A stretch of 64,000 nt of DNA from Ascidia mentula (lineage: Eukaryota > Chordata > Ascidiacea > Phlebobranchia > Ascidiidae). Numbering within the stretch: the first letter of the stretch is position 1; each line of letters opens with the position of its first letter. This document shows positions 3,132 to 61,200 of this stretch, piece by piece. The translations under genes were made by a program, and so were the position numbers. The stretch spans positions 16,058,001-16,122,000 of the forward strand of contig OX387203.1 of NCBI GenBank assembly GCA_947561715.1, read 5' to 3'. Under the pieces are notes generated by a model that was not told the origin of the DNA, searched no databases, and saw only the letters and a list, made by a program, of their open reading frames with translations.

Positions 3132-3725
3132 GGTTTACAGGTTTGGCAGCTCGGGCATTGCAGCCTAGCTGGATCAACCACTTTTTCGTGACAAGTCGGA
3201 GCGAGATTTGAAAAATCAAGCTCCCGGTGAGGTTTGAGCTCACGACCCTTGGCTAACCATGGCCCAACGCTCAAACAACTGAGCAGCAGGAGCTGATTGG
3301 CAGGATCGCCCTACTACGCAGGTCCTTGCTTGGCGATCACAGCTATCGTATCAAGATCATTAGGTGTACAGGCTTGGCAGCCCAGGCATTGTAGCCTAGC
3401 TAGATCAGCCACTTTTTCTGCGTTGTCTGATTATGGTGGTGGACGTATATGTGAAGGTTGCCTGGCAAGTTGTGCGTTTGAGCATCAGTATACCTTGGCC
3501 CCAATATACCCCGTGAAATCACTGAGCTTCTTTAGCTCAGTTGGTAGAGCGTTGGGCCTGGTTAGCCAAGGGTCGTGAGTTTAAACCTCACCGGGAGCTT
3601 CATTTTTCAAATCTCGCTCCGAGCTGATCCAGCTAGTCTGCGCGATACGATAGCTGTGATCGCCAAGCAAAGACCTGCGCAGTGGGGCTATCATGCCATT
3701 GCATGCAATATTACTGCGTTGTCTG
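3132..3725. mobile_element. Composite tRNA-derived SINE with two heads in opposite orientation
   Basis: The segment is bracketed by an 11-bp direct repeat, ATTGATTCCTA, at 3121-3131 and 3726-3736, which fits a target-site duplication. Inside are two copies of a tRNA-like head, one on the + strand (3526-3598) and one on the - strand (about 3200-3290). A 56-bp block (3131-3186) recurs in direct orientation at 3361-3416. The distal tail occurs inverted at 3297-3350 and upright at 3638-3710. A fragment of the same tail recurs at 49,553-49,617. This looks like a dimeric or rearranged SINE inserted as one unit. Confidence 0.65.
3526..3598 (+). repeat. tRNA-like SINE head (A and B boxes)
   Basis: An A-box-like TTAGCTCAGTTGGTAGAGC is followed by a B-box region in which GTGAG and CTCAC pair as a T arm around a 7-base loop. 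The outer ends pair as a degenerate acceptor stem. The anticodon region is irregular (a loop of about 10 bases), so this is a tRNA-derived SINE head rather than a working tRNA gene. Confidence 0.65.
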
Positions 3726-5847: not shown

Positions 5848-8800
5848 ATGCTTAAGCTGACAGCTCTTATTTTCGTATACATCGCTGGTCTGGTCGTCAC
5901 AACTAAGCAGCAACAACAATGCAGATTTGAATGGAACAAACAAACTCAGGAGCCAAATCTTCAGATAAGTGGCCTCAAAGGAGATCGAGGACCCATCGGC
6001 AGACCTGGCAATAGGGGATCTCCCGGACCCCAGGGGGACAAAGGAATTCAAGGCCCGTTACCTGACACAGATCACATGACAGCGATCATTAATAGTATGT
6101 TTGGGTCGTTTTTCTACTCGCCTCCCAAATTGTACAACTAGAATCCCTGGTTACGGATTTTGAATCAAACATTGACTTTCGCATGTTTTTGCAAAGGCAT
6201 AGATACCATATTAAAAACAACCGTGATCTGAAACATTTTGTGTCGTAGTTTGAATGTTACTAATTGAAGTTACGTTTCAAGGGCTTGTACGGATTGAAGT
6301 TGCAAGAACAGAGGCTAAGCTAAGACAAACTCTTCAAGGTTATGTATTTGCAAAGACCAAAGCATGAAATTAAATTTCAATTGCAATTTGTCGAACATGT
6401 TTTTTCTATTGCAGCACTGACAGAAAAAGTTGAACAACAAGAAGCGAAACTTAACAAATCGCTGGAAAGTAAGTTAAAAATGCTCTCTTGACTTCACCCA
6501 AATCGTTTAAAATGCATGAGACACGGTCGTGACAACATCAACTAAAAAATGTAGAAAACTGCATGAAAGTAGCGGCGACCAAAAATCGTAACTTTATCGC
6601 ATTAAAACAACGCATTAGAGATCTTTATATTGTAGATATCGAATAGTTTCAAATATAGGAGAATCCACAAATTACGTTACCTCAAAGGTCAGGACATTAT
6701 ACAAAAATATGTCATGATGACGTCACAAACCAAAGGGTTATTTGTCCCTGATTATCGGAAGATATAGCAGCAACGACACTACTCGATAAAAACGTACTTC
6801 GATAAAACGGGGATGGTGCGTTTCTTTGCTGAGTGACATTAAATGACGTCATTTTGGGTGTGATGTCGTCTTTGTGTTGACTTTAATTTGATGATTCCAA
6901 CATTTCCAGTTATTGTGAATTAATCACATCATTTATGACGCGAACTCGCAGGCAACGCGACTACCAGGAAAAAAGTGGTACTATGACAGAATAACTGTGT
7001 TACATAATCAGATAATTTAAACTAAATCTGTCTGCAGTTTTCAAATTAACATCAAAATCCGTTTGTTGCACTTGTTGTGCCCAGTTTAATGCAAAACTAT
7101 ACTGAACCAAAGCTAAAATGCTGTTAATCATTAGTAAACGCTTCGAACACTAACTGGATTCATCATCAGTACTACAATGAGTGCATGCAAGAAAAGCGTC
7201 GAGGTAATAAAGGACTGAACAAGCAGAAGGGAAACAAAATGTGCTCCACTTACCAAGGATTGCATGCTGAGTATTGCAATATTTCTCGCATGCTCATTAA
7301 TAATGGCTTTCCATCCCATTTCATCTCCACTTGCATTAGGCGTTACCTCAATTGTCGGTATACTACCGTGAACGTGAGCCCACCGACCCCCCCTCCTTAA
7401 GCACCAACCAAGTACTTGGTATTTCGACTGCCCTTCCTTGGCCCTGTAGACTATCACATACGTCAGGAATTACGACAATTCATTAACACACGCAGCTTTC
7501 TCCCCATCAAACTGCGCATGATCCATGATACCACTTCCCTTTCCAAACTCTTCAACTTTAAGGACAAGCAACAGCTTCTCCATCGCTGTAATGTTGTGTA
7601 CCAACTCACCTGCTCCTGTGCGGCCACTTACATTGGTGAGACCACGCGCAACCTTGCCACTCGCATGAAGGAGCATCATCCTTCAACGAAAGCTGTAAGC
7701 GAGGTCAGCAACCACCTGTGGGAAAATTCGGATCATCAGGTTAAATTCAATTCGCCCAAAGTTTTACACAACTGTAATATAAAATCTAAATTACCAATTC
7801 TGGAAACACTTTACATCCAACACCATAAACCAGCACTGAACGTGGATGACAGCTCCAAACCCCTTTACCTATTCAACATCTAGGTCCGTACTGCAGCCTG
7901 ACACATTGCTAATGATGACGTCGCTGCTGTGCTTCAATGTTGTTGTCACGTGACATGCCTCTGGCTTGTTGCGCGTTGCTGCTGCTGTTTCCCTTCTGCC
8001 TGCTCAGTCCTTTATTACCCCGACGCTTTTCTTGCATGCACTCATTGTAGTACTGATGATGAACCCAGTTAGTGTTCGAAACGTTTACTAATGATTAACA
8101 GCATTTTAGCTTTGGCTTTCATTTTCAAAGTTATCAACTCCAAATATTTTGCACCCATATACTGAACCAGTTTGACAAAATTTTCCATTCCTACACATAA
8201 GGCTTACTGCCAGCTCTTGCTTTGGCACGATTTCAAAATCAATGGTTAAATGCAACTTTGATTAGCTGTATCTCAGAAACCAGTCGCTGTATCAAGCTAC
8301 CTTTTTCGCCAAAAATGTTTTAAAGTTATGAGCATCTCTTAGTTTAATTATTAATATGCTTTATTTTTCCCTGTCAAATGCGCTATAAAGTATTTGAATC
8401 CACAACAATCTTATATTATCACGCCAAACTCAGAAATTCCGTTTTTTTTGTATTTTGACCAAAACTAAATTTCTAGGTGCCACAAATGTTTATTATAGCT
8501 GCAAGGCGGATGGAGAAACTGTTTGTGAAGGAGGCTGGCAGGTAAATTAAACATATGTTTGCACTGCATATTTACATAGAAGCATTCAGTTTAAATTATA
8601 GTTTTTATGTATTCTCTTTGCTGTTCGAAATTTTAATAAAAGTTATCGACAATGCATACCTTTTTAATTTCCTGTGCCATGTGCCTTCAAAACTTCAAAC
8701 AAGTTTCAACATCCTAACCATAACTGCAATTTGTTATTGAAGGTGTTTCAACATCGCTATGATGGGTCAGTAGATTTTAACAGAAGTTGGGTGGAATACA

Positions 8801-15444: not shown

Positions 15445-16411
15445 ATGGATGAACTTGTGTGTTCTTTATTGCTTGAACAGCAAAACCTTATTCTCCTATT
15501 GTTAATGAAGCAACAGAAACGAAGGTGGTGGGTGAGACCCATATTGCAGAAGAGAAAAAATATGGGCGAGCAAAATCTGGTGCAAGAAATGAGAAACGAC
15601 CCCCAGAGTTTCCATAAGTATTTTCGGATGGACACTGCTTCATATGATTTGCTTTTATCGCTGGTTCAGCCCTTAATAGAGAAACAGGACACACCAAGCC
15701 CCGCCGATGTCAGGTTCAGAGTTTTACAACTACAAGGGGCACTTCAGCATTGTATTGATGGCTTGCTGCACAGCTAATTACAAGTTTTCGTACGTCGATA
15801 TAGGAGACTCCGGAAGACACAGCGACGGGGGAGTTTTTTCAAACTCAATCTTCGGCCAGCAATTGTTGCACGGCAACTTACCGTTGCCTGCTCCTCGTTG
15901 TCTCCCGAATACAACAACAACTGTACCCTATTGTTTTGTTGGAGATGCAGCCTTTCCACTCAGAAACAACCTAATGATGCCTTATCCGGGTCATTTCTTG
16001 CCAACTGACAAAAGAATTTTTAACTATAGGCTTTCAAGAGCAAGGCGGGTAATTGAAAATACATTTGGAATTTTATCTACACGTTGGCGAATTTTCAGGC
16101 GACCTATAATACCTAACGTAGACAAAGCAGTTTTAATTACCAAGGCCGCTTGTTCCCTTCACAACTTTCTTCAAGACCAAGGGGATGAAAGTTACTTGCC
16201 TTCACACCTACTAGATAGAGAGGATAATGGTGAACTTGTACCAGGGTCCTGGAGAGCGGAAACTATTGGAAACAACCTCCAAGAACTAGGCCAAATAAGC
16301 TCCAATAACTACACTCGTAATGCTGCACAAGTGAGGGATCATTTCAAGGATTTTTTTGTTTCAGATGTCGGTCAACTGCCATGGCAAAACTCTGTTGTTA
16401 CCCGAACATAA
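15445..16411 (+). pseudogene. Harbinger transposase (HARBI1-like), internally deleted
   Basis: From ATG 15,445 the frame codes the N-terminal part (NDPQSFHKYFRMDTASYDLL, LVQPLIEKQDT). After about 15,705 it changes to another frame that resumes at SGSEFYNYKGHFSIVLMA and runs through VDIGDSGRHSDGGVF, GDAAFPL (second catalytic Asp) and RRVIENTFGIL (catalytic Glu), ending at 16,411. Roughly 100-150 residues expected between the two parts, including the segment with the first catalytic Asp, are absent, and the junction is out of frame. The 3' part is otherwise well kept, so the deletion looks recent. The gene converges with the MADF gene ending at 16,483. Confidence 0.85.
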
Positions 16412-16929: not shown

Positions 16930-17389
16930 TGCAGCGCCTGAGGTGTGCAGAACGAAACACTGCCGTATATCTGACTCCTGAATCTATTAAAAACTTCTAC
17001 CAAAGAAACTACCCTTGCGACTTTTAATCCAAACATAAAACGTAACACAAACATACCTTGATTCAAAACAAACAACACAAAACGCGCAGCGTCCAGAGCG
17101 TAGTTTTATCGCTTCGAAAGTGTTCTCTATCCTCTGTCCATATCGTTTTCTATATTCTCCCCGGCTTAAGGCCGTGCGACGGTATTTATAATATTTTTGA
17201 AAATGAGAAAAATGCGATTATTAAGGAACGTCGATTTCGAAATTAAAAATATAAACCGATTAACACATCTGTGCGAGATTAACACATCTGGCGAAAATAG
17301 AAACGAAGCGATTGACCTACATGCCAGTTGCGCTTGTACGGAATTTCAATACACAAAAAATGACGTTTAAATAAAATAGTTTCTCTGCA
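16930..17389 (-). repeat. Long terminal repeat, downstream copy (3' LTR in element orientation)
   Basis: 460 bp, apparently identical to 18,994-19,453 at a constant offset of 2,064 bases. Confidence 0.88.
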
Positions 17390-22318: not shown

Positions 22319-22728
22319 TATTCGGTGAGTTATGTGTTATAGCGATCAAAAGCAACTTTCAAGGGTAGACAGGCAATATACTGCGTTTCTTTAATTAAAA
22401 AAACAATAGAAGGACAATCCCTATTGCAAAATCCGCATCTTGCTGGGTGTTATCGACCGTCGGCCGCTCGAAAACGATTCGCCTAGAATCATAAAAACGA
22501 CGTCCGGGGCAACACATAATAGGGCATTTTCGCTTACCGATGAGACGCTCGAATAGTCTACCATTTCTAAAAAAAATTCGGTTAATGACCGACAAATGAC
22601 ACAAAAAAAAACAGTCCACGGGACATGCAAAAGCCCAACCAAATGTAATCACATGATCATTTTTAAGTCCCATTTCTCTTCAGTTATGTGTGCTGCGATT
22701 CTGTAACTTGTACTTTTTTAAATCCACC
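22319..22728. other. No gene recognised
   Basis: A 92-codon minus-strand frame (22,395-22,673) has no recognisable motif; it overlaps a second frame and looks fortuitous. Confidence 0.3.
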
Positions 22729-22739
22729 AAGACCAAGGT

Positions 22740-22788
22740 GATGAGACCTTTTAGGTCGAAACAGTGGCCATCTGTCTTCAGCTTACAC
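22740..22788 (+). ncRNA. Hammerhead-ribozyme-like insertion flanked by 11-bp direct repeats
   Basis: The direct repeat AAGACCAAGGT lies at 22,729-22,739 and 22,789-22,799. Between and just overlapping them are TGATGA, a 4-bp hairpin GACC/GGTC with loop TTTTA, GAAA, a hairpin CAG/CTG with loop TGGCCAT, then TC. These are stems II and III and the catalytic core of a type I hammerhead in the right order. The base before TGATGA is G instead of C, and the flanks do not form stem I, so this copy is probably inactive and looks 5'-truncated on insertion. Copies with the same core lie at 42,401 and 60,850. Confidence 0.55.
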
Positions 22789-22877
22789 AAGACCAAGGTT
22801 GTCTAACAAATGTCCGGACATAGTTTACGCTAAGAAGACAATCGGGCAGTGTGATACAAGTCCCAATTTCATTAGTG

Positions 22878-36805: not shown

Positions 36806-39800
36806 AAGATCCATTGCCTTGAGGTCAACTTGCGGACTGATTAAGTTTCAAAACGACTGATATTGTAACACTACGCACTAGACGAAATCAAGTTAATGTG
36901 GAACTTTGTGCCAAACTTACGTTTCATTAAAACACAAACATACAGCAATTGTGAGGCTTGCAGAAAACAACAACGGCATATCACAAACTAACGCTCATAT
37001 TCCCAAGGGTATAGTCGTGGCAGGAAGTACTGCGTAGAACGAACAATACAAATCCAGCCAAATCTTTTCTCGAACAAAATAAGGAGCACGCGTCGATGCG
37101 CGCCAGGGTAATTTCCGCCCCTTGGGCACCATGACGTTCGAGGTCAAGGTCGTGGCCTTCAGTATGTATGGTTGTGCCCTAATATGACGTATTCCGTGTT
37201 TGATGTTCGCTCATATGTAGTTTAATACGATTTATTGTCAGGAAAAACTTGTACGTTGTGTATGAAGACGAAATACGCTTGACTGGGTCTATTCGGAAGC
37301 GCGTTTTTGTGCGTGATTGCCACAACTTTTACAGCGTAACAGTATCACAACCGTCCAGTTGTACGCGAACAAGAAAATAAGCATGTTTCTAGATTCCGCG
37401 GTCCACAGTTTCGTTGTGTTTGGTATTTTGTTCAGTTCAGTGGCATGTCGCAGCTTTTGAAGATGACGCATAAAGGCGCTTGGTGAAACAAATTGGTTCG
37501 CAAGGTCACGTTTAGCTTAACAAGGTTACGCAAGACTGTGTTGATTAAAAAACCACGACTTATTTTTATTAATGGTGTCCACATTTAGTCTAGTCCACGC
37601 GCGAAAATTTTTTCGTCACTTACCAAAAAACCTGTGATAGAGATTACCGATTGGTGCAACCGTTTTGTGCTAGCTGCCGCGCTCCTGCAAAAAAGATGTA
37701 GGCGTGCACGAATTTGAACGACAGACATGAATCTGTGCAAGCCTTTCGGCTGCTTGAGCTTGCAACATTTTCAACTGGCCCGCCATTGCACAACAGGTTT
37801 GTCTCACGTAACAAGTAGTTGTATTCAGATTTTTATGGCATGTGGTACTATTGGGAACAAAGTATATTGACTTAAGAGGTGTGATGCTGCCTCACCAAGA
37901 AACAAATTGCGCTTAGCAAGCAACTTGATGCGATTTCCATAAACCCAGTATAGCCACGTGTCCACCAATCACTTTACATAGATTTACAAAAAGACCTGAA
38001 CGCATTGCGAGCCAATAAACTTTGCGAAGTTTCCACCAGGAATTTGTTGTAATACTATAATCGGCAATTTTGTTTATATAATCACAGGGTTGTCGTAATT
38101 TACCAGTTAAAAGGGACGTTGTGGTGCTCTACAACCGGTTTTAATATTTTGCCTATATAAACGGTAATCTAAGATCCATTGCCTTAAGGTCAACTTGCGG
38201 ATTGATTAAGTTTTAAAATGACAGATATTGCAACACTACGCACCAGATGAAATCAAGTCAAACTTACGTTTAATTAAAACACAAAACCTACGGCAATTAC
38301 GAGGCTTGCATAAGATGAAAAAACAACTGCATATCACAAACAAACGCTCATATTTCGAAGGGTATGGCCGTGGCAGGAAGTACTGAAGTGCTGAGTAGAA
38401 CGAACAATACAAATCCAAAAGTACGCTTCGATGCGCGCCAGGGTAATTTCCGCCCCTTGAGCACCATGACGTTCGAGGTCCAGGTCGTGGCCTTCAGTAT
38501 GTATAGTTGTGCCCTAATATGACGTATTCCGTGTTTCATGTTCGCTCATATGTAGTTTAAAACAATTCATTGTCAGGGAAAACTTGTACGTTGTGTATAA
38601 AGACGAAATACGCTTGACTGGCTCTATTCGGTAGCGCGTTTTTGTGCGTGAATGTCACAACTTTTACAGCGCAAAAGTATCACAACCGTCCAGTTGTACG
38701 CGAACAAGAAAATAAGCATATTGTTAGATTCCGCGGTCCACAGTTTCGTTGTGTTTGGTATATTTTGTTCAGTTCAGTGCCATGTCGCAGCTTCTGAAGA
38801 TGGCGCATAAAGGCGCTTGGTGAAACAGATTGGTTCGCAAGGTCACGTTTACCTTAACAAGGTTACGCAAGACTTTGTTGATTAGACTTATTTTTCATTG
38901 ATGCTGTTCACATTTAGCCTAGTCCACGCGCGAAAAATTTCTCGTCACTTACCATATAAACCTGTGATAGAGATTACCGATTGGTGCAACCGTTTTGTGC
39001 CAGCTGCCGCGCCCCTGTAGAAAAGATGTAGGCGTGCACGAATTTGAACGACAGACATGAATCTGTGCAAGCCTTTCGGCTGCTTGAGCTTGTAACATTT
39101 TTAACTGGCCCGCCATTGAACAACAGGTTTGTCTCACGTAACAAGTAGTTGTATTCAGATTTTTATGGCATGTGGTACTATTGGGAACAAAGTATATTGA
39201 CTTAAGAGGTGTGATGCTGCCTCACCAAGAAACAAATTGCGCTTAGCAAGCAACTTGATGCGATTTCCATAAACCCAGTATAGCCACGTGTCCACCAATC
39301 ACTTTACATAGATTTACAAAAAGACCTGAACGCATTGCGAGCCAATAAACTTTGCGAAGTTTCCACCAGGAATTTGTTGTAATACTATAATCGGCAATTT
39401 TGTTTATATAATCACAGGTTTGTGGTAATTTACCAGTTAAAAGAGACGTTGTGGTGCTCTACAACCGGTTTTAATATTTTGCCTATATAAACGGTAATCT
39501 AAGATCCATTGCCTTAAGGTCAACTTGCGGATTGATTAAGTTTTAAAATGACAGATATTGCAACACTACGCACCAGATGAAATCAAGTCAAACTTACGTT
39601 TAATTAAAACACAAAACCTACGGCAATTAGGAGGCTTGCATAAGATGAAAAAACAACTGCATATCATAAACAAACGCTCATATTTCGAAGGGTATAGCCG
39701 TGGCAGGAAGTACTGAAGTGCTGCGTTGAACGAACAAAACAAATCCAGGAGTACGCTTCGATGCGCGCCAGGGTAATTTCCGCCCCTTGAGCACCATGAC

Positions 39801-42055: not shown

Positions 42056-42400
42056 CTTTAATTACACAACGGTTGTATTGTGCAATGGGTCACATTTTGA
42101 GACCGTAAACACAGATTAATTTAATCGACTTAACTTCGTGGCAATGGTGCCCATTCCGCCACTCGTTAACATGACGAGGAAATAAATTGGGAAACGTGGA
42201 AGATACCGCTTGTTATAGGAATTTGGTTCAGGTTCAGGTTTTTCTGCACCCATACCGTGACAAACCACTTATGAAACAACAAGATTTTATCACGATTTAA
42301 ATTTTTGTACAATATTTTGCTTTAAACTGTACAGTCAACACTGAGTGGATGTCTTTGCTTGGGCGTTTCATCATCAAGGTGGTCGGCTGATAGTCACACC

Positions 42401-42440
42401 AGCTGCACTGATGAGAAACAGTGGCCATCTGTCTGCAGCT
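42401..42440 (+). ncRNA. Hammerhead-ribozyme-like sequence lacking stem II
   Basis: In order: AGCTGCA (stem I strand), CTGATGA (core), GAAA (core), CAG-TGGCCAT-CTG (stem III hairpin), TC (cleavage dinucleotide), TGCAGCT (stem I return strand). Stem I pairs perfectly over 7 bp and the core bases are all canonical for a type I hammerhead. The expected stem II between CTGATGA and GAAA is absent here, but the related copy at 22,740 has it (GACC-TTTTA-GGTC). This copy is thus an almost complete hammerhead with a clean loss of one arm, and it is unlikely to cleave efficiently. Confidence 0.65.
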
Positions 42441-42556
42441 TACACAGTATTTTGCTGTTAGTGACGTGTTGGTTGTTTTTTACGGCCCATATCTGAACTA
42501 GGCAAGCCACACACGGTAAACGCAGTGTGAAAATTTGTTAAATTTTAGGTTCAGCT

Positions 42557-42661
42557 CATGAGTGCCACCAAGCGACTGGGTCGAAATGTTTGTTCTATTC
42601 ATTTACTATTACGCGATCTGGAGTAACGTGTCCCGGTTTTCAGGCAATTTAGTTAAATGTT
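42557..42661 (+). repeat. Dispersed repeat shared with 20,852-20,958
   Basis: CATGAGTGCCACC starts both copies; further blocks are CGATCTGGAGT and TTTAGTTAAAT. The copies differ by small indels. No function is known. Confidence 0.6.
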
Positions 42662-42944
42662 AGGCTTCAGCAAACTGCAATCTAAGATAAGACTGTCAGT
42701 TTGTGAGCTTTTACTTGTGTTGGTTGTAAACCACGTTGTTCTATATATTTAGTGATAGCGATGATTCTGAAATGTAAAGCATGTTTGAAAGACATATGTG
42801 CAGTTTATATTTCTCCCCATTATGAACTAAAATTTGCGTGTACTGTTTACAAACCTTAAGATTTATGAGTTTGTGATAAGTAATCATTTTTGCTTAGTGA
42901 TAACTATTTTTTTATTCTAAGGAAGATAGTTATCAACAAACATC

Positions 42945-48900: not shown

Positions 48901-51900
48901 TAAAAATCCCGCCACCAATTCTAAACTAGAGCTGATTGCAAGACAAACCAAGTCGTTTCAGTTGTGTAAGTATGTCACGTATACAACAGTAACAATAATA
49001 CGACGAACACAAAAACCAAAACAATGTGCGCAAAATATGGTACAATAAAATATTACAAAAACATCAAGGTCCGCTTCACTCGGTCCATGCACATCGAAAC
49101 AAGACGAACCTAATACATAAATCTTGTCAGATGTGAAATCCTTCCTTTTTGGCTTTAACATTACTGACTGCAGTTACTAGGCAAGTGGCGGCAAAGCTCC
49201 GCTCTTCAAATGAATTACATTAGAGTACACCAATTCAAAACTGCGGGGGGTACGTTGCCACATTCCACTTGTTCGGGACGAAAAGTTGTATGACAAATGT
49301 TTTTTCCACATGTTCTTGCTTAAAAAGTCTTCGGTTCGAACGCAAAGTCCGTTGTTTTGGACGGTAGGTCATTTCGTTTCAGTGTAAGCTATGAGAGCCC
49401 AAAATACTCATAGTCCGTTCTTCTGGCACATTAAAACGTAAACTTGTATTCACCGACGTTTCACCTGCTTTTCAGCTAGGCTTCCTCAGGGTTTGGCCGT
49501 GAAGCATTCTAGTGATAGACGACAAATAATGGCAATATGATCATAATATTAGAGCTGTGATCGCCAAATATAAAGGGCCTGCGCAGTGGGGCGATCCTGC
49601 CTTGATGCTATGCGAAAGCGTGGTATTACTTTTGCATAATGGCAACAATTTTTAATTTTTTAAACTAGCAATATAATATCGTACAACAGGAGCTGTCTGT
49701 CTTGTAAGAGAACTTCCAGCCAAAAAAGGATATATTTGCCTTTAAATTCAAAGACCAAATACTTTATCAACTGTAAAATATTTTGTTCTCCAGTTAAAAA
49801 CCTATTTAAAACTTCCAGAAAAAGGGATGCAACAGGCAATTAAAGAAATCAAAATGTACCAATTGGAAAAACTTGAGACAGATGTCGACTCTTACAGTGA
49901 AAAGCTTAAAAAGGCTGACATTCCAGAGGTTCATCCATCACTTATCAATACTGATATTTACAAAGGAATTGATCCTGAAAATGAAATTGAGTTTCAGCCA
50001 TCAACAAACAAGAGAGTTAATGATCGATTTGTTGGTGAACATATAAAATTTATGGATCTAGTTTCAAATTACAAAGGAGAAAAACAGAAAGGCGCATTCC
50101 TTGCATTTCTGGGTCCTGCAGGATGTGGCAAAACTACGCTTTCAAAGAGATTGTTCAGACATTTAGAAGCAGAAGATCGCTTAGTGCTTCATCTCAGGTT
50201 CATGTACTTAAACTACGGCGAAAAACAACTTACCCTTCGGGAGCTTTTGCTGGATAATCAGTTTATTGATGCTTCTGAGGAAACACTTAGTTTGGTTTTC
50301 CAGTGGATGATAACCAACCAGGAAAAGTGTACTTTCGTTTTTGATGGTTTAGATCAGGCAACTTGGACACTAAAAAACATGGCACCCATAAATGTGAAGT
50401 ATGACACTCCCTTGCCAGTACAACAGCTTGTTGCTAACCTTTGCAGCAGGCAGTGTTTTGCGAAATCTATGCTGATTTTTACATCTCGGCCCCACACATT
50501 ATTCTCAATACCTTTAGGACTCCGACCGAAGCTTACAATTTATGTTGGCGATTTTTCTCCAGAGGATGCAAAGGCGTTGTTTTATGGTTATGCAGCAGAT
50601 AAAGCCAATGACCTGTGGAACAACCTTGAAACAAGATCTCCACAGTTGCTCGATTTATGTCGCAATCCTATGCTTTTACAATTCACAGTTTACGCTGGAT
50701 TGTTTGGTGATGCAAATCACATTTCCACCGCAACGAATGTGTTTGATGCCGTCTTGCAACAACTTGACAGCTCCCAGCATTCACAAGGGGGGGAGAAATT
50801 AGAGGACCTTAAATTATCACTTGGTCAAATGGCTTACAAAGGAATAGTTCGCAGAACTGTTGTTTTTAAGCAAGACGACCTTCGAAACGTGGGTTTGGAA
50901 GATATAAAAGTACAAGATGTCATAATCAAAATGGTAAAACTGTCCTGGCTCCTCACACGGAAAGTTTTTGACGGGGCGGATGTTCTGTTTTACTTCATGC
51001 ATCAAATGTTACAAGAAGTGTTTGGAGCATACTACATTGTCCTGTCAATGTTAGAAAAAGAATTTGATCAAATCGTCGACGATTTAGTTACAAAATCCCA
51101 CTGGGCAATGACTCGTCGTTTTGTTTGTGGCCTTCTGCTCGGACACAAATTGGGTATGTGGAACATACTACAACCAATATTGTACTTTTAAAAAACAATT
51201 ACTTATTCAATTATTTTGCTTTTAAAACAAGCCAATGATGATAACCGAAATGAAACCAGTTTGGAGTCCAGTACTACCAGTCAAACAGTAAATTCAAGGA
51301 CTCAAAAAATAGGTCAGCCTTCAATTTATTTTTCCTGTTTTTTAAATGTTGAAAAATATTGCGTTAAAAAACATTGGTTAAAGAACTATATTTACAGCAT
51401 TACACCATTAAATAAAAGAAAATTAACAATTCTGCTTGACTTTTAACCCAGTTGTGTAGAATTGAAAACTCGCGTGGTTTATCGTGTCACTGTAGTGTTT
51501 TAATATCTTTTTGCAGAAAATTCTAGAGGAACAAAGCGTTACTCGACAAATCGTTTCGAAAAACAATCGAAGCGTCCAAGAAAAGGTTTGTTTTTAATTC
51601 AAATTAGGTTACCACGACTTTGCATGGAAAATATAGTTCTTAAAATTCTTTTAACAGCTTCTTCAAACACGCTTCCGAAACAATCTACTACATCATCAAG
51701 TCGTAATCCTAGCTATCAACCGAAACAAGGTAAACTCGGAACGGAATACAAAGCGTATTCGTCTGGTAATTGTTTAAACATTTGGTAAACTGAAATCGAA
51801 TGTACAAACACCTACGATCAGCAATGGCGCGGCGGAGCTCTTAAATGGTGGCAATACTTAAATAAAATTCGTTTTGTTACACTATTTGTGACAAAAAGGT

Positions 51901-55908: not shown

Positions 55909-58287
55909 CAGGGGTGCACAACCTTTTTACTACTGCCGGCCGCAACGCACGCACTACTGTGTCCTAACGGCCGCAGTTAAATATACTGCCTTTCCAACGG
56001 TATACTACTGATAATTTCGACAAGTTGACGTGAGCAATATAAGAAAGGAATGAAAATGATTCCATACCTGAAAAATGTGCACTATTTATTATTTACAAAT
56101 TACGTATATACAATGTAACGAAGAGTTGAAGTATTTAATGGCTGCCTTGTTCTTGCACGCCCATAGACAAACTTTCGAAGTTAGGTTGCTCGTTTGAAAT
56201 CATCAGACGAAGACCCGACTCCAAATTGCTGTCCAACATACGTGTTCGGTACTTGTTCTTCAAATACTTCATTTTTGAAAACGCTGCTTCGCACACGTAA
56301 GTGCTTCCAAAAAGAACAAGAGTTTTTCTGGCCAATTCTTGCAGTTTAGGATATTCAACTGCACTTTTCCAGGTATTCAGCAAATCTTCTTCGTCTTTAA
56401 ATTTCTTGACTAGCTGCTCGTTATTTTCAACTCAACCAGCTCCATTTGAAGACGTAACGGTGCAATTTCGGTTTCCACCAGATGTGGAAAAGCAACGATT
56501 CTGATTGTTTGCGAAATTTTCTCAAAATCTTTAAAACGGTTAGCGAATTCCTCCAACAGCCCGTCGAAAACGCCGGAAAATATATCGATTGGAATATTCC
56601 CAACATTTATTTCTTTGCTGTCAATCAGCGCTGTCACTTGCGGAAAATGAAAGAAATTGCGTTGCCTTAGATGACTTTTAAAGAGTAGACATTTGTCCCG
56701 GAAATCTTGTACTTTTTTGTACAGGAGACAAACTGTTGTTGTTTTTCCTTGCAAACTTTGGTTCAGATAGTTGACATGAGTTAGAAAATCCACCAGAAAA
56801 GCAAGAGATGTGAGGAAGTCAACGTTGATCAGGGGGCAGTACTTGTTTTTAAAGCCATAATATTCTGTTATTTCTTTTCGCAAAAGCAAAACACGGCAAG
56901 ACGTCTCTCCCTGAGACAACCAACGGACGGAGGAGTGATAAAGCACATCCTCTGCTGACGTATCACTTGAGCTTAAAATTTCTTGAAATTGCCTGTGATG
57001 AAGAGCATTTGCCCGAATGAATAAAATAATACCATTTACGTCTTTCAGAACGTTACTTAAAGCAACGGATTTGGCACACAATGCTTCCTGGTGGATAATA
57101 CAATGAAGATTAACGAGCTCGTTATTTTCATGCTCCTTACATACGTAATCTGACAATCTTGTCACAAATCCTTGTTGCTTACCCGTCATGGCAGGTGCGC
57201 CATCCGTGCAAATGCCACGAAGACTTTTTAAATCTAATCCGGACCGAATGCAGGCATTTTTGACTGCATCAAATATGTCTTCACCACGGGTGCGGGTAGC
57301 CAGTGTTTCCATTGAAAGAAGATCCTCACACAACTCAAAACTTGTAGATAGAGAACGAACGAAGACTAGCAGTTGCGCAGAGTCGTTGATGTCTGTAGAT
57401 TCGTCAACAGCGAGCGCAAGTAAACTTCCTTCTTTATTAACTTTTGCTTTCAGAGAGAGCTTCAACTGCTGAGCGATGTCAGATTGCCGGCGCTGCACAG
57501 TAGCGCGCGAAAGAGGAATCGATGAGTAATCTATTTCTTTGCCGGGATGAATGCATTTCACAACGTCCATGATACATCGCTTAACAAGTTCCCCATCGGA
57601 ATAAGGCTTTCCTGCAACACCAAGATGATATGCCACTCTGTAGGAAGCTTCGCAACGGTGATTGGTGGAGTGAACGAAAGAAGAGATGCAAGCGGTTTGC
57701 TGACGAACACGCTTTTTTAAATTTTCGACACAGACCTTCCTAGACTCTCCATCCAACTTTGCATAGGCGTGTGACAAATGCCGCTGAAAATGCTGCTTTG
57801 CATTATCCCCTTTTACAGTTTTAACGATTTGGCTGCAAATTAAACACTTCATGGAATGTGTTGCTGTCTGCATCATGAAATAATCCACCTCCCATTTGGG
57901 ATTAAACGCCCTTTTCTCTTCTTTTAGCAACCTTTTGCGTTTCAGCGACATGACTGATTGAGTCCACTGTTTAGCTTTTTGACAAATGTACATGCGTACA
58001 TGACAATTGACAGACATGCTATCAATGTTTTGTGACGTCACCATCCGTATTGTTTCGCTTTGTTTCGCCTGTGTTTCAAAAGTTGCGGTGGCTGCAACAG
58101 TTACTACTCGCTACAGCGAACGAATGTGTACAACGCGGAAATGGAAATGGGCCTAATTAAAAGCTTAACTCTTGAGACATTAAAAAACAAGTTTCAGAAG
58201 CAACGACGGCCGCCAATGCATGTATTTGGATATAAATGTGCACGGCCGCCAAAAATAGCGTCCGCGGCCGCAGGTTGTGCACCGCTG
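55909..58287 (-). mobile_element. hAT transposon, 2,379 bp, almost whole
   Basis: Terminal inverted repeats read CAGGGGTGCACAACC on the left and CAGCGGTGCACAACC on the right (inverted). They are flanked by a perfect 8-bp duplication CCATAGTG (55,901-55,908 and 58,288-58,295). The interior is filled by one transposase gene on the minus strand. It sits inside the Penelope-like element, so it is the younger of the two. Confidence 0.9.
56135..58044 (-). pseudogene. hAT transposase (ZBED5/GTF2IRD2/SCAND3-like), one frameshift
   Basis: A 544-codon frame (58,044-56,410) contains a BED-type finger (MKCLICSQIVKTVKGDNAKQ HFQRHL), LALAVDESTDINDSAQLLVF (first catalytic Asp), GICTDGAPAMTGK (second Asp), LHCIIHQEALCAK and SVRWLSQG. 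It ends where a second frame (56,383-56,135) supplies the hAT dimerisation block (LVLFGSTYVCEAAFSKMKYLKNKYR). The two overlap around an A-run near 56,408-56,415, so a single-base change separates them. Family length is about 600 residues, matching the sum. The likely start is either 58,044 or an internal Met (MSLKRKR). Confidence 0.85.
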
Positions 58288-60064
58288 CCATAGTGTAACA
58301 TCATACGCTTAGCGTGCCTGTTAGAACAGGAACGTGTGGCAAAAAGATCGTACCGGTAGTTATCGCTGTTTCTTGTGGCTTGACCGCGGGCTTTTTTCTA
58401 AACATCCATGACGGATACAGATTTGTCTGCAGTGCATTCTTGATAAACCTCATCTCTTTGTCGCGGCTCTATCCATCAGCGACCGCACTACCGCTGTCTT
58501 GCGCTGTATCGGATGTGCCGACTTGAACGACAGGTACCGCATGGTGTGCGTCGGCTTGCGATACACACGAGTGCTGATCAAACCATTCTCATCACGGATA
58601 ACCTCTGTATCTAAAAACGGTAGTGTGCCACCACTTTCCTTTTCTGAATTTGATTGAATCTTCTCCATGGTTATTGTGGTTAAGGAACAACTGGAGCTGT
58701 GCTTCATTAACGATGGCGAAGGTGTCGTCGACATAACGCTTCCAGTAACGGGTAGAATGCGCAAAAGTGGCGAGTGCCTTATCCTCAATTGTTTCCATTA
58801 CTACATTCGCCACTACCACAGAGATGGGCGAACCCATCGCCGTACCAAACACCTGTAGGTAAAAAACACCACGAAAGGAAAAATAAGTGGCGTTCGAACA
58901 TAATTTCAGCCCTTCAGCAATATCCTCACATGATAGCAACTTGCGCTGCTCAAGGTTACTGTCATCCTCTAAGCGTGCCATGACATTAGCAACAGCTACC
59001 GATATTTGCAAATTGGTTAAAAGAGACGTCAAAGGACGCCATACACTCATCTTCCGCTATTGCTAAGTTTCTCACTTCAGCTGCAAATTCACGTAAGTTT
59101 TTTACGTGGTATGGACTGTTCCCAACCAAAGGGAAAATAATCCTTGATATGAATTTGGCGAGACGGTGACCCGCTAAAGGAAAAAATGGGTCTGAGAGGC
59201 ACGCCCGGCTTCTGGACCCTGGAAAGCCCGTGCAATTCGGGCGTCCTACCGTCTGTGCAATGCAGCTGTCGAAACTCACCAACAGATAACGCCTCACGGT
59301 CCCTGCGTAAGTAACCAACGAAGCGGTTTATCTTTCGTTCTAAGGACGGGGTAGGGTTTCTGGAACTTTTTGTAAGGTTTTTTGTCACTTACAAGTTCCA
59401 GCAGTTTAGTATTATATTCGGAATGGTTCATGACCACCGTTTGAGCGTTGCCGCGACGTTGCAACGAAGTATAGCCAGAGGACAGCACTGGCGAAACACG
59501 CTGCCACACTCGGCCACCGAGTTAACTTCGACGAGGTCCGAGTCCTAGAGATGGAGAAGGATCACACAAAACGTCTATTCCTGGAGACGCTCAACATTCA
59601 GAAGAACAACCATTGCGTGAATGACAAGGAGCAATGTGTGTACTTTTCAGCAGTTTACAACAACTTGTTGTAAGTGTTACGCCCCGCATTTGTGGTCGAA
59701 CTGCTTCTTTTAGCGGTAACGAAATGGGAGTTTTGGTTACGGCCATGCGAAGACTACAATACAAAGTTGTGATTCCTGATCAGGTTACAAATCACGGCCC
59801 AACAAAAATTACATTAGGGGCCCAAATTGGGTCGCGGGCCTACAGGTGGACCACGCTCAAAAAAGTTACATGCAAAATCATTTTGTGTTTTTAGTAATTT
59901 TGAAGGAAAATCTGGGATTATGACCGATTTTATTTACTTTCCCGTTAATCAACACTAGATTCTTGACCGATACATAGATTTAAAGTGCAAATGACACGGT
60001 GATGACAACTTTGCGCAAAACTAAAGGTACATCTACAACAAACATATATCCAAACTTTTTCGCT

Positions 60065-61200
60065 TCTACGTCAACTAAAAAATGTAGAAAACTGCACGAA
60101 AAGTAGCGGCGACCAAAAATCGTAAACTTTGTTCGCTGTGGCGAAATTGAAATCACACAAGGCGCTCGCATCGAAAAAAGGCATTGTTTACATAGGAGAA
60201 GGCGCCTTATATTGCAGATATCGAAGCAAACAGGAGAATTCACAAATTACTTTACCACAATGGTCAGGAAAAGGTTTTACATCACACAAAAATATGTCAC
60301 TGTGACGTCACAAACCAAAGGATTATTTGTCTCTGATTACCGGAAGACCAAAGGGTATAGCAAAAACGACATTACTCTGTACTTCGATAAGACGGGGATG
60401 GTGGGTTTCTTTGCTTAGTGATATTACATTTCGTAATTTTGGGTATGATGTCATAACTTTAACCTCACCTTTATGTTGACTTTAATTTGATGATTGCAAC
60501 ATTTCTAGTTACAACTATATTGCAAAAAATACATTAGTGGATGATTGTGGCGAATTAAATAAATCATTTATGACGCGAACTCGCAGGCAACGCAACTGTC
60601 CGATAAAAAGTGGTACTATGACAGAATAACAGTGTTGTGTTGCATAATCAGCTAATTTGGTCGTTTTTTTCTAAGCGGTCTTTGCCAAAATTCAATTAAC
60701 CTATTATATCTTTCGCCGTGAGTGGACAAAACGACAATCTGTCGTGTTTTCAAAGTTCATGTACCACGTTAGCGATGATAAATGCTGTAACAACAAGAAC
60801 ACCCTGTCCCAGTAACTGTTTTATTATTACACAACTAAATAAGACATAATAGGTCGAAACAGCAGCCATCTGTCTGCAGCTCAAATTAACATTATAATCC
60901 GTTTGTTGTACTTATTCACTTGTTGTCCCCTGTTTAATGCAATACTATACTAAACCAGTTTTACAATGTTTTCCATTCCTACGCATAAAGCTTGCTGCCA
61001 GCACTCGCACGACCAAAGCGCCTTCTATGACGTCACGCAACAATAATCTCGCTTTCGCACAATTTCGTTCGTAGCGGCAAAAATGCGACTTTGATCAGCT
61101 GTATCTCAGAAACCAGTCGCCATATCAAGCTACGTTTTTCGCCAAAAAAGTTATGAACATATCTTAGTTCAATTTTTAATATGTTTTCCGTGTCACATGC
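60065..61200 (+). repeat. Dispersed repeat 'A', uninterrupted copy
   Basis: Same family as 6526-7109 plus 8158-8400. The sequence ACTATACTAAACCAG near 60,946 runs straight through the place where the ficolin-intron copy holds the Penelope-like element. The copy also contains GGTCGAAACAGCAGCCAT and CTGTCTGCAGC (60,850-60,882), a hammerhead-like remnant. Confidence 0.75.
60850..60882 (+). ncRNA. Hammerhead-like remnant in repeat A
   Basis: AGGTC, GAAA, CAG-CAGCCAT-CTG, TC, TGCAGC align with the 3' half of the copies at 22,740 and 42,401. The 5' half (CTGATGA and the first stem I strand) is not recognisable, so it cannot be active. Confidence 0.4.

Follow-up and report, generated by a model that had tools for sequence, protein, structure and literature searches.

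Animal retrozymes have been associated with Penelope-like elements (PLEs) because of a shared hammerhead type, of tandem copies and of co-existence, and the available part of PMC7229834 calls PLEs "a strong candidate" for moving them; the proposal is repeated in the parts seen of PMC7761336 and PMC8969392. Among partial records, judged mostly by title, no publication title testing this mobilisation was found. The insertions of PLEs carry an optional tail of 30–40 bp, which is the space between two start sites of reverse transcription (PMC11167929), and the accessible part of PMC3846280 describes a 31-bp tail on one inverted pLTR, with target-site duplications (TSDs) of 8–10 bp in the described cases. 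In that same part the head-to-head junctions of PLEs are attributed to self-priming on the antisense template, and not to priming on two strands. Besides, for the PLE studied in PMC11167929, RNA with an inactivated hammerhead still inserts and unprocessed RNA is the main substrate in vitro, so that cleavage is not required there.

The window analysed here is the whole stretch of 64,000 nucleotides. The locus of interest within it, at positions 42325–42446, is quite probably a dead, 5'-truncated insertion of a short retroelement without coding capacity, of the same kind as the animal retrozymes and mobilised by a PLE. The family to which it belongs, its anatomy, the division of the 3' ends into two groups with the A/B rule that they follow, the target-site words and the parallel with PLEs are established at the level of the sequence.

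The copy at 42325–42446 and its relatives in the window

Read letter by letter, positions 42401–42440 display on the forward strand the order of a type I hammerhead from which stem II alone is missing; the earlier note had claimed both this order and this single loss, and was right on the two points. The 5' strand of stem I, AGCTGCA (42401–42407), is followed by the conserved core CTGATGA (42408–42414), then immediately, at the junction 42414–42415, by the conserved GAAA (42415–42418), whereas the intact relatives have at this junction a 13-nt stem II hairpin, GACC-TTTTA-GGTC. Stem III (42419–42431) is made of CAG (42419–42421), a 7-nt loop TGGCCAT (42422–42428) and CTG (42429–42431). It is followed by TC (42432–42433), with a cleavage point that we take, from the anatomy of hammerheads, to lie after 42433, and by the 3' strand of stem I, TGCAGCT (42434–42440).

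By blastn with one family unit (L009:1193–1478), 42325–42446 is recovered on the forward strand as a single 5'-truncated family copy, at 78.5% identity. This 122-bp insertion matches unit positions 152–283 and its 3' end lies at the site called A below; dispersed relatives found by the genome search match it mostly at 77–85%. The 9-bp word TATTTTGCT is present on both flanks, its left copy (42313–42321) ending three bases ahead of the matched start of the element and its right copy (42448–42456) starting one base past the matched end. The locus thus reads as a single 5'-truncated insertion, in which a non-coding retrozyme of the animal type has decayed. Only one arm is present and it ends at A; the loss of stem II is predicted to abolish ordinary self-cleavage. 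The window copy is an ordinary fossil.

Even with the threshold relaxed to E ≤ 10, Rfam gave no hammerhead match in the window, and the hammerhead claim therefore rests on homology. It is this homology, to thousands of genome places with an intact core, that bears out the earlier statement that the arrangement is not due to chance. By contrast the motif CTGATGA by itself carries little meaning, since its 12 occurrences in the window, against 6.5 expected, were reached in 4 of 100 shuffles. A search of a phage collection returned nothing matching.

A second family copy (22739–22789, forward strand) starts at unit position 233. It has stem II, GAAA and stem III and is 5'-truncated inside CTGATGA, therefore it is devoid of the 5' strand of stem I. 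The word CAAGACCAAGGT flanks it at 22728–22739 and 22788–22799, overlapping the ends of the element by 1–2 bases. A related copy provided with stem II had been announced for the window: the stem is indeed there, but the copy is incomplete on the side of stem I. A third and diverged copy (60839–60881, forward strand, 86% over 43 bp), with no clear target-site word on its flanks, is an older remnant. Complete hammerheads of the family, none of which is found in the window, are abundant elsewhere in the genome.

Other repeats and coding regions were seen along the window. A related word recurs at 37462, 38794 and 40124 (forward strand), with a spacing of about 1.33 kb pointing to a long tandem repeat, and the same 19-bp-period tandem repeat occurs at 17258 and 19322, 2,064 bp apart, probably through a local duplication. 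Pfam indicates a DDE_Tnp_4 transposase at 15707–16411, a NACHT-domain protein at 49827–51191 and a Spin-doc zinc-finger protein at 56410–58044.

The hammerhead family in the genome

The genome searched comprises 195.8 Mb in 79 contigs. A DNA search with window positions 42101–42700 found at least 83 places including the query itself, the other matches lying within query positions 225–360 and mostly ending at 346. The intact core CTGATGAGACCTTTTAGGTCGAAACAG occurs at 3,252 places with at most 3 mismatches (1,664 forward and 1,588 reverse), and GAAACAGTGGCCATCTGTCTGCAGCTTA, 28 bases from GAAAC to GCTTA, at 2,056 places with at most 2 mismatches; these counts are places and not independent insertions, and the reversed-pattern controls of both searches gave 0. 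Some members of the family are in tandem arrays of ~285-bp units (unit 286 bp), like the L009 array, with a period of 285, 5.9 copies and 99% similarity. In the loci L002–L022, overlapping loci included, 50 of the 54 rows with a hammerhead pattern are rows of this family. The usual intact copy reads CTGATGA, GACC-TTTTA-GGTC, GAAA, CAG-CTG, TC, TGCAGC.

These data support that the ~285-bp units, in each of which a single type I hammerhead is found, form a genomic retrozyme-like family. Such a family of hammerhead-bearing elements had been suggested in the earlier note, and both the 3,252 intact-core places and the arrays speak in its favor; the objection that the genome might hold no copy with three stems is answered by those found in L002–L022. 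The units have the size and structure of metazoan retrozymes (non-coding tandem units of 150–450 bp with one type I hammerhead each), and copies dispersed with target-site duplications are present too. Differences have a median of 1 within arrays versus 4 between arrays, L021 departing from this with 18–20 differences. The low difference within arrays is what a single template for each insertion would give; as the family is young, however, this is suggestive only. As for the lower proportion of mismatches in the hammerhead (3.1%) than in its flanks (9.8%), it was left out of the argument because the copies had been picked for being identical to a query that lies within the hammerhead.

By letters and complementarity, the intact copies of L002–L022 have the CUGANGA and GAAA core, a UH site, three stems and an open-ended stem I; this core and this order of parts are those of type I hammerheads. 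With the model RF00008 they score 20.2–22 bits, for a gathering threshold of 48.5, and the match (e.g. L009 828–882) ends short of the CTG-TC site, thus it does not confirm the type I reading. The genome search with RF00163 was empty, but so were its controls, which makes it uninformative. When the intact region is folded at minimum energy, stems I and II are retained and an ACTG/CAGT pairing replaces stem III. As regards the tertiary contact between loop 1 and loop 2 of metazoan retrozymes, no closed loop 1 is evident in the secondary-structure fold, and among the copies read the variation of stems I and II is too small for weighing changes against base pairs. Folded as a circle, the unit reaches –90 kcal/mol and its positions 3–36 form a hairpin of ~34 nt.

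Sister hammerheads that differ in the loop of stem III were noticed at L038, L044, L061 and L031. The loop contains a palindrome in the main family (TGGCCA), in L061 (TAGCTA) and in L038/L044 (GTGTACAC), and not in L031; loop-loop dimers formed via such palindromes are conceivable.

The pattern made of a stem-II-less core and stem III, which would miss diverged copies, matches 13 genome places with at most 3 mismatches, and the flanks of all were read. CTGATGA is kept in three of them, the window copy, L024 and L025. In L026, L027 and L029, CTGGTGG runs directly into GAAA, and these are probably one duplicated locus because their flanks are near-identical. The others correspond to the 3' part of the family, either joined to other sequence (L028, L030–L034) or adjoining an inverted family copy (L035). 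Six stem-II-less places share an identical break, the 13-nt hairpin being gone between two GA words, and a reverse transcriptase skipping the hairpin would yield such a deletion. The letters at the cleavage site are CTGTC in the window, CTGTA in L024 and L025, and CATATGTC in the L026 trio; as CTGTA is carried by 94 of 1,192 exact-match copies, its presence in both L024 and L025 is a weak sign of a shared source.

Insertion ends in the family and in resident PLEs

The ends of the copies were read in 86 rows from 77 loci, which are not 86 insertions: L063/L064 and L113 account for several rows each, and some head-to-head arms were entered as separate rows. The sample consists of 30 loci and 51 further stretches that match the anchor exactly and all belong to contig C1, from which a few places already in L003, L017 and L021 and the repeats of the same flanks were left out; it is biased to exact anchor matches, mostly from one contig. 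Modulo the unit, the 3' ends of all 86 rows fall within –3 to +43 relative to the unit end, and they form two groups about 30 nt apart, A (up to +13) with 61 rows and B (+20 to +43) with 25, none being found between +14 and +19. The 5' ends are scattered over the unit, and in 25 of the 86 rows they are adjoined by part of that unit in inverted orientation. The flanks share words of at least 7 bp in 28 rows, versus a mean of 4.1 and a maximum of 9 in shuffles, and words of at least 10 bp in 14 rows, versus 0.6 and 3 respectively. Site A is just before the hairpin 3–36, and B is in its 3' strand or at the end of it; on this predicted fold, we propose that the hairpin might space two start sites, A and B.

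Two further observations were made on these ends. Unit positions 225–228, just ahead of the hammerhead core, are the 5' end of 11 of the 86 rows and possibly a stop point of reverse transcription. Copies of the tail in which another base precedes it, sought as the sign of a partner element, were found at 23 places.

Thirty head-to-head insertions were examined, and 28 of the 29 classifiable ones have one A end and one B end. The script had counted 22 head-to-head rows, i.e. 20 A/B and 2 A/A; one of the latter, L117, was counted A/B by eye, its tail being present after a small deletion, while L077 and L086 (both A/B), missed by the 40-base gap rule, were added by hand and L063 was left out because it repeats the L009 insertion, truncated where the locus stops. 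The A/B expectation was fixed before 7 further loci were fetched: the six classifiable are all A/B, and L138 could not be classified, its plus arm being without its 3' end. The sole A/A among the 29 is L016, whose two flanks are exact mirror images over 66 nt. The 86 rows that were not paired by the script comprise 59 A, 26 B and 1 unclear; with B at 26/85, independence predicts 42.5% of A/B (p about 7e-10). Flank words of at least 7 bp accompany 27 of the 29 head-to-head loci versus 1.4 in shuffles, the word of L016 arising from its mirrored flanks. In the family the head-to-head tail, on one end only, measures about 22–43 nt.

PLEs reside in the same genome. Window positions 58592–59050 correspond to a PLE-type reverse transcriptase (RT) fragment with at least 152 matching genome places; it was named PLE by its letters and by the hammerhead-bearing loci reached from it, Pfam giving no match. 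Open reading frames (ORFs) reach 801–841 aa in five PLE loci, and their minimal hammerheads run into GAAACGTC (L071–L074) or GAAACGTT (L070). Nine head-to-head pairs of resident PLEs were examined, and all seven classifiable pairs, from four family groups, are A/B, with one short and one long end: L070, L071, L126/L127, L128/L129, L132/L133, L134/L135 and L136/L137, the latter classified by eye after a weak blastn match. L072, with homology beyond the expected ends, and L130/L131, with one end not found, were left out, and L073 and L074 are tandem loci outside this count. Matching words were seen by eye on the flanks of the head-to-head PLEs. For the PLE studied in PMC11167929 no difference of start site between top and bottom strands is reported, hence no A/B division.

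The two 3' end sites ~30–40 nt apart, the tail on one arm and the short TSDs that would be expected from mobilisation by PLEs are all found in the family. The 286-bp unit is devoid of the ORF with RT and GIY-YIG that makes a PLE autonomous. No sequence above chance is common to the unit and the five PLE loci, therefore we name no PLE partner; the tails of resident PLEs offer no plain equivalent of the hairpin 3–36. Copies at a 2.8-kb spacing on C1 were considered as a PLE mark and rejected: they belong to a stretch that is duplicated and contains a single ORF of at least 120 aa, un-PLE-like by eye.

Other PLE-like traces were observed in the window. At 7107–8115, a PLE fragment with a GIY-YIG domain (7416–7883) stands between 130-nt inverted arms (7107–7236 and 7986–8115). 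Both arms carry a minimal hammerhead motif of the PLE type (8053, forward; 7169, reverse), and the whole looks like another head-to-head insertion. Three CTGANGA...GAAACGT motifs on the reverse strand, at 49489, 53677 and 55363, resemble the hammerheads of resident PLEs.

Proposed mobilisation of the family and comparison with known systems

The mobilisation of the family might proceed as follows. Tandem copies would be transcribed and, by analogy with published retrozymes, the hammerhead would cut the transcript into monomers, which would be ligated into circles. At a staggered cut in the target, a PLE protein would then copy the retrozyme RNA by target-primed reverse transcription, starting either at A, just upstream of the ~34-nt hairpin, or at B, which is within the 3' strand of this hairpin or where that strand ends. 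The extension of both target strands, one from A and the other from B, would then give a head-to-head insertion with a tail at a single end. In this scheme we infer the cleavage, the circularisation and the PLE protein as the enzyme. More generally, we incline, if only slightly, to the idea that animal retrozymes are parasites of the PLE machinery, and that at each double-armed insertion the labour is divided in a fixed way, one PLE reverse transcriptase starting at A and another at B on the opposite strand, with a spacing set by the template hairpin. If this is true, an RNA of 285 nt bearing a hammerhead and this hairpin would be a minimal PLE substrate.

Could a LINE-type enzyme, and not a PLE, have moved the retrozyme, the inverted copies being formed by twin priming? 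The 5' truncation and the target-site words of about 7–14 bp fit LINEs too. However, in twin priming of the L1 type the inverted part stops at an internal position of the element, whereas here both outer ends are unit 3' ends, A plus B, in the 28 of 29 classifiable cases; moreover the junctions printed have no consistent poly-A or simple-repeat 3' end, and the PLEs of the same genome obey the same A/B rule, which altogether makes this explanation unlikely. Tandem satellite DNA with a fossil hammerhead, spread by recombination instead of retrotransposition, would account for arrays of 99% similar units, but it is hardly credible for copies that are, in those read, largely dispersed and 5'-truncated with defined 3' ends; their flank words are far above shuffles, and target-site duplications contradict such an origin. 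The probability of a mere chance resemblance to a hammerhead, to which the blank Rfam result in the window would lend itself, is negligible, as it is refuted by the homology to thousands of intact-core places.

A last explanation concerns the stem-II-less form, which might be a distinct minimal hammerhead lineage, still mobile and working, for example as dimers. Stem-II-deleted "minizymes" are able to act in this way, and the same exact deletion is found at 6 of the 13 pattern matches, in up to four separate lineages. PLE RNA with an inactivated hammerhead also still inserts in vitro (PMC11167929). On the other hand the stem-II-less places are six, compared with 3,252 intact-core places, no variant common to them proves a common descent, and the L026 trio has two core changes (CTGGTGG): such a lineage seems quite improbable. 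We thus retain, as the most probable reading of the window copy, a decayed retrozyme moved by a PLE.

In this retrozyme-like family, the A/B end rule appears as a fingerprint that insertion of the PLE type has left in the genome. Mobilisation by PLEs was earlier proposed from co-occurrence, and a structural fingerprint is now available in the insertions themselves; the rule also supplies exact start sites against which a purified PLE protein could be tested.

The family compares with the metazoan non-LTR retrozymes of Cervera and de la Pena (2020, PMC7229834) which, in the part of the article available, are likewise short tandem units without coding capacity, each provided with a type I hammerhead, dispersed and multimeric; in that part no description of the A/B tail pattern of insertion ends was found. 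With the GIY-YIG PLEs (PMC11167929 and the available part of PMC3846280) it shares the 5' truncation, the tandem and head-to-head insertions and the short TSDs. The hammerhead near the 3' end and the one-end tail are common to both as well, the tail being of about 22–43 nt in the family and 25–45 nt in the resident PLEs. The family unit differs from PLEs in that it has no ORF, and its hammerhead has a CAG/CTG stem III, in place of which GAAACGTC or GAAACGTT follows directly in the five PLE loci of this genome. The minimal hammerheads of PLEs and Terminons are said, after Lunse 2017, to act as dimers. These hammerheads, also covered by the accessible part of PMC7761336, resemble ours by the type I order and a short stem III; they differ by the missing stem, which is stem III in them and stem II in the window copy.
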